A program made the position numbers and the translations under genes. A DNA stretch of 64,000 nt from Malus domestica (lineage: Eukaryota; Streptophyta; Magnoliopsida; Rosales; Rosaceae), in NCBI RefSeq assembly GCF_042453785.1, contig NC_091661.1, positions 29,875,501-29,939,500 on the forward strand, given 5' to 3'. The number at the start of each line of letters is the position of its first letter. Positions within the stretch are counted from its first letter, which is position 1. The notes beneath the pieces are model-generated. The model was not told the origin of the DNA. It worked only from the letters and a program-made list of their open reading frames with translations, and ran no database searches. Below, piece after piece: positions 15,001 to 63,894 of the stretch.

Positions 15001-16127
15001 AATTAACCTTATGGTATGGTATGCGTTTTTATTTTTCCTGGAGGTTTTGGTTCACGGAACAGCTGAGGCCACGGAACATTTGAAGCAACACTGCTTGAAA
15101 CATGTTTGCCCGCATGTTTATGCTCCCCAAATTGAAGAAACAATTGATGTCACTTCTGACTTATGTGCTTATAAGGTAAAATCTTAGGTCGTACCCAGTG
15201 CACAAGGCTCCCGCTTTACGCAAGGTCTGGAAGAGGTGAATGCCGGCTAGCCTTACCCCCATTTATGGAGAGGCTGCTCCCAAGTCTCGAACCCAAGAGA
15301 GTTGCACCTGCATGAGAGCATCAAGATTTTACCTTATTTGATTAATTTTGCATTATTTGAAATGCAGGTGCAACTGTCTGAGAAGTTAATGAGTAACGTG
15401 CTCTTTAAAAAGGTAAGCATGAGAGCATCAAGTTTCACCTTATGTTGTCTGTATCATAATCATATCCTCCTCACCATCTTGATGTAATTTCAAACACAGC
15501 TCGGAGATTACGAAATAGCTTGGGTTGATTCTGGGGCAGGAAAGACAGAAAATGAAATGCTATCTTTACAACCCCTCTCAACCCCGCCTCCACCGCATGA
15601 ATATGTCCTTGTTGGTGACTTAAAAATGGCTAATTTCAAGCAATTTCTTTCCGACAAGGGTGTTCAGGTACCGTTTCCGTTCATTGCTTAATTTCTTGGA
15701 CTATGGTCCGTCACCAAAATTCGTTCTGTGAAATAATCTCACGTTCTCAACTTCATGTTTTGAAGCCCAGAGAAAAGGTGAAGCTCTATGGAACTATTGT
15801 ATTTACAACGATCTTGATCTGATTTCCTTGACAGGTTGAATTTGCTGGTGGGGCGCTGCGATGCGGTGAATATGTGACATTACGCAAAGTTGGGGATGCA
15901 AGCCATAAGGTTCGTCAGATACAGATATGCTAATAGTATTAGCACCCAAGTTTTTGGTACAACAGTTGCATTTTTGCAGATGGAAAGTCTGACTAGCGTA
16001 TTTATATTTTTTATCTTTTTTGTAGGGTGGTGGTTCCGGAACCCAACAAATTGTGATCGAAGGCCCCTTATGCGAGGATTATTACAAGATTCGGGAGTAT
16101 CTCTACTCACAATTTTATTTGCTTTAA
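12083..16127 (+). pseudogene. CPSF2: CPSF2 (CPSF100) locus lacking its N-terminal catalytic-fold region
   Basis: CPSF100 is the partner of CPSF73 in the nuclear complex that cleaves and polyadenylates pre-mRNA. Exons: 12083-about 12150, 12157-12283, 12402-12517, 12668-12762, 12869-13020, 13134-13191, 13271-13378, 13504-13756, 13953-14137, 14571-14663, 14755-14853, 15044-15175, 15368-15412, 15500-15667, 15835-15909, 16026-16127. The start MGTSVEVTPLCGVYNENPLSY is exact for the family. It is then joined directly to the [15 protein letters not shown] region, so roughly 120-150 residues of the metallo-beta-lactamase part are gone. The third exon has CG in place of an AG acceptor. From exon 4 to the stop, frame and phases are kept, ending in YLYSQFYLL. 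The intron after 14137 appears to use a GC donor (GCAAGT). Probably a non-functional or partial copy, with a full CPSF2 elsewhere in the genome. Its 3' end is the source of the CPSF2 pieces in the array. Confidence 0.8.
15186..15298 (-). mobile_element. 5'-truncated SINE in a CPSF2 intron (same family as 58622)
   Basis: It matches the complete SINE at 58622-58786 over its outer 110 bp, including the words ggctcccgctttacgc and ggagaggctgctccc, and stops before the tRNA-like head. The family resembles the plant Au SINE. It lies in the intron between the CAYK and VQLSEKL exons. Confidence 0.75.
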
Positions 16128-16598
16128 GTAGAGATACATAATATCAAACGCCTTCGGATGAACTGTCATTTTTAATTTCTAGTGATTTCCTGAACCACAC
16201 TAAAGTTTAATTTAAATGTAGGACGTATTTTCCGTTGAAATTGTCAATTCTGTTCATGCATGATGAAAATATTTGAAATAAATTGACAGTTCAAGTAAAT
16301 CATATTCAAGGAAACAAATCATGTTTGATGAGTTAGAGACGAACGTGTTAACTTCAATTAGTACCAAGACATTACATTAGTACTCAAACAAAACATCACA
16401 AACGAATCACAGTTAAACATTATAATTTTTTTATGTGACAATATGCAAGTGAGTCGGAATAATGCGGCAAACATGGCAAGTAAATTACAATGCATTTTTA
16501 CTATTTTAGGCTGCTTGATTGGTTTGAGATATTTTGCATAAGGCAAGAGTTGATTTCCAGGTGTCAACGTTCGAGCAAAGGAGCTTTATCCATCTCTT

Positions 16599-16606
16599 TA
16601 TATAAT
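16599..16606 (+). promoter_or_regulatory. TATA box of CYP89A copy 1
   Basis: The word tatataat lies 71 bp before the start codon, in a leader conserved among the array's P450 copies (ending cggttgaccatgg). Confidence 0.55.
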
Positions 16607-16669
16607 ATGGAAAATAACAATTTCTTAAGCAGACGCATTTGCCCTTTGTCCGATTGCTGACGGTTGACC

Positions 16670-61398: not shown

Positions 61399-62958
61399 AT
61401 GGAAACCTGGTTCCTGATCCTCATCGCCTTCTGCGTCTCCTTCCTCCTCAAACCCCTTCTTTCCCTATTCCTACCCACTTCCATCTCCAAACCCAAGCTC
61501 CCTCCTGGGCCCCGCGTCTTCCCCGTCATCGGCGGCTTCTTATTCCTCCTCAAATCCTTCTCGGAGCTCGAGCCTATCATCCGCAAACTCAAGGCCAAAC
61601 ACGGGCCCATTATCTCCCTCCGCATCGGCTCCCGCCCGGCCGTCTTCATCGCCGACCGCTCCCTCGCCCACCAGGCCTTAATCCAGAACGGCGCCGTGTT
61701 CGCCGACCGCCCCCGGGCCTCGGCCACCAACAAGTACTCCAGCAGCAACCAGCACAACATCAGCTCCGCCATCTACGGCCCCACTTGGCGCCTCCTCCGC
61801 CGCAACCTCACCTCCGAAATCCTTCACCCTTCCCGGGTCAAATCCTACGGCAACGCCCGCAAATGGGTTCTCGACATCCTCGTCAACCGCCTCAAAACCA
61901 AGTCTCAATCCCACTCCGAAGGCGCCAGCGCCGGCGTCAGGGTGGTCGACCACTTCCAATACGCCATGTTCTGCCTCCTGGTTCTGATGTGCTTCGGTGA
62001 CAAATTGAACGAAGAGCAAATCAAAGAAATCGAGCGGGTGCAGCGCCAATTTCTTTTGAGTTCCGGGCGGTTCAATATCCTCAATTTCACCCCTAAATTG
62101 ACGAAGATTATCTTCAAAAATCGGTGGCGGCAATTCTTCAAAATCCTCGAGGAACGACGAGAAGTGCTCGTCCCTCTGATTCGAGCAAGACAAAACAAGG
62201 CAAAGCAGGGCAGCAAAAACGACGACAATGACGATGAATTTGTGTTGTCGTATACTGATACGCTGCTGGACCTCGAGCTTCCCGACGGAAACAAAAAGCG
62301 GAAGCTTTCGGAGGGAGAAATGGTCAGCCTCTGCTCAGAGTTTCTGAACGGCGGCACCGACACGACTTCCACCGCGCTGCAGTGGATCATGGCCAACGTA
62401 GTGAAGTACCCGCAAGTTCAGGAGAAGCTGTTTGCGGAGATTAAAGGGGTTATGGGAGAAACGGAGGACGAGCTGCGGGAGGAGGTCCTGCACAAGCTGC
62501 CGTATCTGAAAGCCGTGATCTTGGAGGGGCTGAGGCGCCACCCGCCGGGCCACTTTGTGCTGCCGCACGCGGTGACGCATGACGTGGTTTTGGGCGGACA
62601 CGTGGTGCCCAAGAACGGGAGTGTTAATTTCATGGTGGCGGATATAGGCTGGGACCCTCAAGTGTGGGAAGATCCCATGGCGTTCAAGCCGGAGAGGTTC
62701 TTGAGCAGCGGCGGAGGAGAAGAAGGGTTCGATTTGACGGGGAGCAGGGAGATTAAGATGATGCCGTTTGGGGCAGGGAGGAGAATCTGTCCTGCGTCGG
62801 GATTGGCGGTGCTTCACCTGGAGTACTTTGTGGCGAATTTGGTGTGGAAATTTGAGTGGAGAGCTGTGGAGGGAGATGACGTGGACCTGTCGGAGAAGCA
62901 GGAGTCTACTGTGGTGATGAAGAATCCATTGCAAGCCCACGTAATCCCTAGAATTTAA
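61399..62958 (+). CDS. Cytochrome P450, CYP89A type, copy 5
   Basis: 519 residues, intronless, intact: anchor, KLPPGPR, GGTDTTST, EGLRR, FKPERF and heme loop [15 protein letters not shown] with Cys464. The protein groups with copies 1 and 2 (VFPVIGGF, HPPGHFVLPHAV, Ala after CP). Yet its upstream and downstream flanks group with copies 3 and 4, as do [11 protein letters not shown] and the EWRAVEGDD...EKQE end. That mixture suggests recombination or conversion. Unique changes include KYSSSNQ and NFTPKLTK. The reaction is unknown. Confidence 0.95.
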   Translation: METWFLILIAFCVSFLLKPLLSLFLPTSISKPKLPPGPRVFPVIGGFLFLLKSFSELEPIIRKLKAKHGPIISLRIGSRPAVFIADRSLAHQALIQNGAVFADRPRASATNKYSSSNQHNISSAIYGPTWRLLRRNLTSEILHPSRVKSYGNARKWVLDILVNRLKTKSQSHSEGASAGVRVVDHFQYAMFCLLVLMCFGDKLNEEQIKEIERVQRQFLLSSGRFNILNFTPKLTKIIFKNRWRQFFKILEERREVLVPLIRARQNKAKQGSKNDDNDDEFVLSYTDTLLDLELPDGNKKRKLSEGEMVSLCSEFLNGGTDTTSTALQWIMANVVKYPQVQEKLFAEIKGVMGETEDELREEVLHKLPYLKAVILEGLRRHPPGHFVLPHAVTHDVVLGGHVVPKNGSVNFMVADIGWDPQVWEDPMAFKPERFLSSGGGEEGFDLTGSREIKMMPFGAGRRICPASGLAVLHLEYFVANLVWKFEWRAVEGDDVDLSEKQESTVVMKNPLQAHVIPRI

Positions 62959-63138
62959 TGCGTGGGAGAATTCTGTAATAATTTTTCGATATACTTTGAA
63001 CTGTCAAATCCATCAATGTATGCTCTTCATTGATTATGCAATTTCGAAAATTTGGAATTTTAGTTTACTAGTGTGATACAAGACAGATTTTATAACTTCA
63101 ATATTTAGTGAGTGATTTGAGTGAGCTGTACTTGCTAC

Positions 63139-63394
63139 TTTTTAGCTTATAACTAATACAACTTTCCAATCTTGGAAGACATCTTCTGTATTTAGAGATT
63201 GCCCAATAGCAAGGAGCATTTGAGAATTTGATGGGAATGCCTACATAGTTACAACTCTCCTTTAATCTTGGTGTTACAACTTGTTTGATGACTAATTCGA
63301 TATCCCAGTTATTGTGGTCTGAACAAACTCGGTGGAGTAGTGTTTTTGTTTTTACCTTCGTATATATAGAAATGGAAGAATAAACAACTTTTTG
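63139..63394. other. Recurrent block of unknown origin, copy G
   Basis: Third copy of the block at 34081-34345, more diverged. The minus-strand words TKTLLHRVC and ELVIKQVV are still recognisable. Confidence 0.5.
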
Positions 63395-63894
63395 AAGACA
63401 ACTTCTTTCCGACAAAGGTGTTATGGTACCATTTCTGTTCATTGCTTAATTTGTTAGACTATGCTTCGTCCTAAAAATTCGTCAACTGAAGTAATCTGAA
63501 GTTTTCAACTTCATGTTTTGAGCCTCGGAGATAAGGTTAAGCTCTATGGAACTACTATATTTACAACAATCTCGATCTGATTTCTTTGACATGTTGAATT
63601 TGTTGGTGGGACGCTGAGATGCAATGAATATGTGACATTACGCAAAGTTGGAGATGCAAGCCATAAGGTTGGTCATATACAATATGCTAATAGTATTTGC
63701 ACCCACATTTTTAGCACAACAGTTCCATAGCTAGAGTTCTAGTTTGCGGACGGAAAGTCTGACTAGCGTATATATAATTTGATCTTTTGTAGGGTGGTGG
63801 TTCTGGCACCCAACAAATTGTGATTGAAGGCCCCTTATGTGAGAATTATTACAAGATTCGGGAGTATCTCTAGTCACAATTTTATGTCCTTTAA
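63395..63894 (+). pseudogene. CPSF2 3'-end fragment G
   Basis: It starts like fragments D and F (tttccgacaaaggtgtt), but it keeps the VEFVGGTLRCNEY exon (acceptor changed to ACATG) like C and E. The last exon stops early at EYL (TAG). The TAA at 63892-63894 is followed by the Tourist-like MITE. It is thus a hybrid of the two fragment types. Confidence 0.85.

Follow-up and report, generated by a model that had tools for sequence, protein, structure and literature searches.

A tandem array of cytochrome P450 genes on chromosome 1 (C1) of apple (Malus domestica), whose units carry broken 3' ends of the CPSF2 (CPSF100) gene, probably arose by three tandem duplications, named t3, t2 and t1 after their joins, followed by unequal recombination within the repeated CPSF2 tails. 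The window analysed is a stretch of 64,000 nucleotides (C1:29,875,501-29,939,500; contig NC_091661.1 of the 651 Mb, 19-contig assembly GCF_042453785.1), in which position x corresponds to genome position 29,875,500 + x. This numbering is kept throughout, also for the C1 DNA that was extended beyond the window to 113 kb, and a 50 kb locus on chromosome 7 (C7) served as the outgroup. The comparison covers one genome, the CPSF2 remnants are short, and the P450 bodies have undergone exchange. The P450s are presumed to belong to the plant CYP89A subfamily.

Nine P450 bodies are recognisable, six inside the window (A, B, C, C', D and E) and three beyond it (F, G and H). Besides a long CPSF2 copy (R0), there are six CPSF2 3'-end remnants in the window (R1-R6), with R7 and R8 beyond (Table 1). 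A tenth P450 unit, since lost, would have followed R5, as indicated by the CPSF2 remnant of that unit. The six window remnants, together with a shared join described below, agree with the original prediction that a P450 unit had grown in tandem with CPSF2 3' exons as its passenger. The further claim, that a remnant of the last two or three exons accompanies every P450, holds in part: six remnants do lie among the copies, but of the three exons (15,500-15,667, 15,835-15,909 and 16,026-16,127 in R0) the 5'-most is absent from R1 and the penultimate one from R3 and R5, and no remnant lies immediately upstream of E, where 5 kb of transposon separate it from R5. The deletion of 15,824-15,923 is common to R3 and R5, in which the exon preceding the lost one is reduced to ~20 bp. 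In R2 and R4, splice acceptors are lost.

The P450 flanks and CPSF2 are connected by three kinds of join. At t1, which is present at B (30,615/6) and C' (35,735/6), both flanks pass into CPSF2 at one and the same intron point, 15,476/7, as had been predicted for these two places. To the left of t1, B and C' are identical to D's P450 flank at 56 of 60 and 58 of 60 positions; to the right, CPSF2 from 15,477 is matched at 51/60 and 52/60, respectively, and the native continuations agree with each other at only 12/60 and 21/60. With up to four substitutions allowed, the t1 word occurs at two places in the 113 kb of C1 (30,601 and 35,721), and at none in the 50 kb of C7 or in 20 letter shuffles. 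The sequence of A is compatible with t1, though short of proof: its flank ends at the t1 base, and six of the next seven bases fit t1 before a transposon fragment begins. At t2, a flank reaching ~270 bp further out is joined to CPSF2 at ~15,648. This join is found at four places, C, D, E and F (in the window at ~34,352, 48,568 and 63,405), and neither t1 nor t2 was found in the 50 kb of C7. An inserted element was considered as the source of these additional 270 bp in the window copies C, D and E but was rejected, because the whole stretch is present in G and its first ~65 bp on C7; it is thus native flank, and G departs from it at the point where CPSF2 begins in the t2 copies. At t3, before H, G's flank is followed by a 1 kb stretch of other DNA and then by R8. 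The predicted switch of the P450 flank at a single word therefore stands for B and C' among the six window flanks, but C, D and E have t2, and A is cut by transposons. Only one base is shared at t1 and three at t2 (the latter judged on G alone), and the founding joins thus fit poorly with the unequal exchange that had been proposed; these two joins are nearly homology-free.

The t1 join had also been read as the scar of the first exchange. However, two other joins exist, and t1 is probably the youngest, the third exchange rather than the first, since both a P450 tree rooted on C7 and a tree of the remnant 5' parts place it so. In the P450 tree, H lies outermost (bootstrap 94), followed by G (95); the remaining copies form two groups, {A,B,E} (98) and {C,D,F} (100). 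Synonymous divergence (dS) is 0.255-0.279 from C7 to all copies, 0.197-0.222 to H, 0.133-0.176 from G to A-F, and 0.108-0.137 between {A,B,E} and {C,D,F}. In the remnant tree, the t2 remnants R3, R5, R6 and R7 stand together (99) against R0, R2 and R4 (89), of which R2 and R4 follow t1. Along the array, t3 lies before H and t2 before G, and t1 is confined to the remaining copies.

Units were assigned to class I or class II according to whether a miniature inverted-repeat transposable element (MITE) is absent from or present at the CPSF2 stop codon; its TAA target duplication was read by eye. Besides its place at R2, the MITE is found at 45,521-46,083 (before D), partly at 60,404-60,690 (before E) and from 63,896 on (after R6), and none was seen at G and H. 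The classes along the array are A I, B I, C II, C' I, D II, the lost unit I, E II and F II. Where readable, class I is followed by t1 and class II by t2, and the repeating element of the array is therefore a pair of units (class I - t1 - class II - t2). The blocks R2-C-R3 and R4-D-R5 are collinear copies (R2-R4 92.4%, R3-R5 95.1%, C-D coding 96.5%) and have t2 and the 15,824-15,923 deletion in common.

Later growth of the array looks homologous, with R3, R5 and R6 switching parent inside the CPSF2 tail. In R3, the ratio of R7-like to R0-like sites is 13/5 and then 4/26 (p = 8.7e-5), and in R5 it is 14/4 and then 2/22 (p = 9.6e-6), sites being counted as independent. The controls gave p = 1 (R2), 0.36 (R4) and 0.77 (C7), and R1 has no 5' sites. 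Spread of the repeat through exchange of R0 with R7-like tails would predict an R7-like 5' part followed by an R0-like 3' part, as observed. Similarly, R6 is R3/R5-like at 11 of 12 sites up to 15,815, including one that precedes the t2 join, and R2/R4-like at 4/4 sites at 15,834-15,918 and 12/12 from 15,950, as expected if an exchange took out a class I unit. The traceable later changes in unit number (R3/R5 and R6) switch parent within ~200 bp of dead CPSF2, 15,746-15,950.

Overall, the C1/C7 separation would have come first; the CPSF2-P450 pair on C1 would then have been duplicated in tandem three times with differing end points, in the order t3, t2 and t1, the CPSF2 tail being copied along with the P450 each time. 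The repeated tails would have supplied the homology for unequal recombination, by which units were multiplied and sometimes removed and the chimeric R3, R5 and R6 were left behind. Several observations weigh against this account. Mean dS values follow the proposed order, but the ranges for t2 and t1 overlap at their margins (G-E, 0.133). E combines class II surroundings with an A/B-like body (98), and this mismatch means that P450 bodies have been exchanged, so the P450 tree is not a pure duplication history. C' joins A and B at only 44 and 54, and the flank tree is poorly resolved; R7 spans 110 of the 176 bases of the remnant 5' part, and its 3' part is placed at only 56. The left edge of t3 is the 1 kb stretch and not a defined base, and the differing start points of the remnants stem from later deletions (R1). 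When R7 is taken as the 5' parent of R6, the test for a switch is weaker (p = 0.0093 against R2 and 0.068 against R4).

If t1 came first and t2 later, the shape of the trees would have to result from later conversion between copies. The two-unit pattern can also be drawn with t1 first, and E demonstrates exchange between P450 bodies; however, the t2 split is deeper both in the P450 tree and in the independent remnant 5'-part tree, and divergence is greatest for G and H, the copies situated beyond t1, so that this order is quite improbable. Conversion could also bear on the chimeric tails, which might be short gene-conversion tracts instead of crossover points, copy number having grown otherwise. 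The replaced body of E indicates that conversion-like events happen, but the class II state of R6 extends through the MITE to P450 F, and R3 and R5 run on into R0-like intergenic DNA without the MITE, both as a crossover would give. Conversion tracts are therefore an unlikely source of the chimeras, and crossover within the tails remains the preferred mechanism.

The tails themselves look like passengers with no evident function. It had been suggested that six CPSF2 ends may offer polyadenylation signals between the P450s, and retention of the tails as terminators or poly(A) regions would fit the AATAAA found within 350 nt past the CPSF2 stop in four of nine copies examined (R0, R2, R4 and R6). 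However, the hexamer of R2, R4 and R6 sits inside the inserted MITE, and none occurs within this distance in R1, R3, R5, R7 or the intact C7 gene. Because poly(A) signals in plants are degenerate, and the AATAAA count stands without a shuffle control, a poly(A) role is unsupported rather than excluded. Constraint could likewise be read from exons being less diverged than introns in 18 of 21 pairs among R1-R7, by which equal exon and intron divergence across all remnants was rejected. Equality holds for the sister pairs only, whose exons differ as much as introns or more (R2-R4, 0.076 and 0.080; R3-R5, 0.073 and 0.040), and the lower exon difference in older pairs may predate duplication; for the long constrained pair R0-C7 the values are 0.052 and 0.140. 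Together with the lost splice acceptors and deleted exons, these observations make retention for such a role very improbable.

The CPSF2 copy in the window, R0, is itself a pseudogene. Its exon 1 is joined to the acceptor of the exon that is fourth on C7, with ~640 bp gone and the frame lost; the acceptor of the exon at 12,402 is GG (AG on C7), and the donor at 14,138 is GC (GT on C7). The R0 exons, joined by hand, match four Pfam domains (lactamase, beta-CASP, RMMBL and CPSF100_C), of which the lactamase domain is covered only at profile positions 125-184 of 193; the best PDB match is human CPSF2, with the alignment beginning at residue 137. Of the 16 R0 exons, 15 have a C7 counterpart that is just as long and has an AG acceptor; exon 1 was placed by BLAST plus reading of frames, and three further coding-frame pieces readable on C7 fill the stretch missing in R0. 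The C7 CPSF2 is intact, free of R0's deletion, frame loss and lost acceptor. Between the two, dN is 0.023 and dS is 0.171 (556 codons), and the pair was therefore constrained over most of its history. The CPSF2 C-terminus has 19 matches genome-wide, all within the C1 array or the C7 locus. Downstream of CPSF2, C7 has a single P450 (C7:34,245,342-34,246,891), whose open frame ends at 335 amino acids (aa) after a one-base gap relative to A; no second copy and no array were found in the 50 kb of C7 examined. Decay of CPSF2 on C1 would presumably have been possible because C7 retains an intact copy; on C7 the single P450 was lost by frameshift. The C1 and C7 flanks are collinear, with synteny picking up again past H at 98,399. 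Chromosomes 1 and 7 are reported to have collinear segments in apple (PMC7393226), and pear pseudo-chromosomes 1 and 7 to have partly homologous blocks (PMC6249763). A review raises assembly doubts for GDDH13 chromosome 1 at 22.3-28.4 Mb (PMC6450873); the array lies at 29.88-29.97 Mb, if the present assembly is that one.

Table 1. Features of the P450-CPSF2 array, in window numbering (MITE, miniature inverted-repeat transposable element; LTR, long terminal repeat; ORF, open reading frame).
Feature	Position	Strand	Description
R0, CPSF2 (CPSF100) pseudogene	12083-16127	+	Exon frames, splice sites, Pfam/PDB matches, comparison with C7
P450 A	16670-18226	+	518-aa ORF; class I (without MITE)
R1	20657-20994	+	CPSF2 from 15792 onward; transposon fragment in place of 5' part; without first of three exons
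P450 B	21565-22706 and 30065-30500; 3' flank to 30615	+	Frameshifted; split by LTR retrotransposon
LTR retrotransposon in P450 B	22707-30059		Target duplication GTGGT; LTRs ~98.6% alike
Junction t1	30615/30616	+	P450 flank joined to CPSF2 intron 15476/7, ~23 bp before exon at 15500
R2	30616-31262	+	Three exons; GC in place of the first acceptor (lost), second acceptor ATG instead of CAG
MITE-like insertion	31263-31844	+	At TAA stop codon of R2; class II marker
P450 C	32344-33897	+	517-aa ORF; class II
Native P450 3' flank past t1 point	34077-34352 (C), 48300-48568 (D), 63138-63405 (E)	+	Ends at t2
R3	34353-34730	+	15824-15923 deleted; 5' part R7-like, 3' part R0-like
C' (P450 remnant)	35211-35735	+	First ~100 bp, last ~95 bp and flank; ends at t1 35735/6
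R4	35736-36065 and 45187-45521	+	Split by hAT-like insertion with other elements inside
P450 D	46564-48120	+	518-aa ORF; class II
R5	48569-48744 and 55143-55341	+	Split by Harbinger-like insertion (TAA); following P450 lost
P450 E	61399-62958	+	519-aa ORF; class II surroundings, body closest to A and B
R6	63406-63895	+	5' part R3/R5-like, 3' part R2/R4-like
P450 F	64,755-66,311		Beyond window
R7	80,537-80,947		Beyond window
P450 G	89,819-91,381		Beyond window
R8	92,897-93,242		Beyond window; CPSF2 14,486-14,775 joined to 16,033-16,100
P450 H	94,996-96,558		Beyond window; last copy of array

Complete ORFs are present in six of the nine P450 bodies (A, C, D, E, G and H). The frame of F is interrupted by a single internal stop and that of B by a frameshift and the retrotransposon, and C' has a large deletion as well as a 127-bp insertion at 35,541-35,667. 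The PF00067 p450 domain is full length in A, C, D and E (profile positions 1-456/457 of 462), for which dN/dS is 0.295-0.455 (two methods, six pairs). The heme-binding motif PFG.GRR.CP[GA] is found in all seven P450 copies examined; A, E and F have CPA in place of CPG, and A and E share with this change a GGTDTT in the I-helix where AGTDTT is conserved. The closest solved plant structures are sugiol synthase and ferruginol synthase. Published work links CYP89A9 to chlorophyll breakdown.

Transposons have entered the array repeatedly. That the stretches between genes upstream of C, D and E are unrelated sequence was considered and rejected: they are the same DNA, into which the MITE (at the stop codon) and further elements have inserted. 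The retrotransposon in B encodes a gag domain on its minus strand, and a related 1014-aa frame is present at L009 4897-7941, downstream of F. Conversion between A and B at this retrotransposon site (BLAST 92% versus 99%) is not claimed, as gap-free windows are mostly at 95-100% versus 99-100%. The hAT-like insertion in R4 is flanked by the 8-bp duplication TATACAAC, and the insertion splitting R5 contains ~2 kb of CA/TG-type microsatellite (52,529-54,647). The regions 38,584-44,949 and 55,412-60,407 are related transposon sequences, with CACTA-like ends at 55,413 (by eye) and an internal tandem copy at 39,801-44,945. A short repeat in an R0 intron (15,182-15,298) has dozens of genome copies, mostly 96-97% identical, and none in the C7 gene. 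Upstream of the genes, a near-perfect inverted self-match at 4014-4287 marks a palindromic element, and signal-peptide-peptidase-like gene pieces lie at 9162-10,813 (PF04258 at 9162-9959), in a stretch collinear with C7.

The array is the same kind of system as human RCCX (STK19-C4-CYP21-TNX) and maize P1-wr. RCCX is likewise a P450-bearing tandem module with cut-off pieces of neighbouring genes; according to PMC8362596, STK19B comprises only 914 bases of the STK19 3' end, TNXA is a truncated piece of TNXB, and TNXA/TNXB recombination deletes CYP21A2. The apple array similarly has a gene copied with a cut-off neighbour end and apparent recombination between passenger pieces (the chimeric R3, R5 and R6). 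However, people mostly carry one to three RCCX segments, which are long and recent, whereas the array has about ten short, old, diverged units, three kinds of join, many transposons and a neighbour gene that is dead on C1. P1-wr is a plant array for which PMC2686159 reconstructs an initial phase of non-homologous end joining and subsequent growth by homologous recombination, with chimeric edge genes, which resembles the nearly homology-free founding joins and homologous growth proposed here. P1-wr differs in that its repeat, 12 kb long and centred on no P450 but a Myb gene, is present in eleven nearly perfect copies, in contrast to diverged P450s with a passenger from an unrelated gene. No published account of the apple locus was found in the accessible parts of the literature on CYP89A tandem duplication in apple and Rosaceae, CPSF100 together with CYP89 (no papers at all), CPSF100 pseudogenes and plant P450 arrays with gene fragments.

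It is possible, though less likely than not, that the CPSF2 tail was the array's recombination handle and not a mere passenger, and that growth on C1 resulted from a division of the gene pair between the chromosomes, C7 keeping CPSF2 and losing the P450, and C1 losing CPSF2 and multiplying the P450. For annotators, the CPSF2 beside the array is dead, and the CPSF2 fragments are not genes. With CPSF2 dead on C1 and the P450 dead on C7, the two related loci are an example of reciprocal gene loss. The growth of a plant P450 array is here given a rooted history, and a shift from nearly homology-free joining to homologous recombination can be read in a passenger seemingly free of selection.

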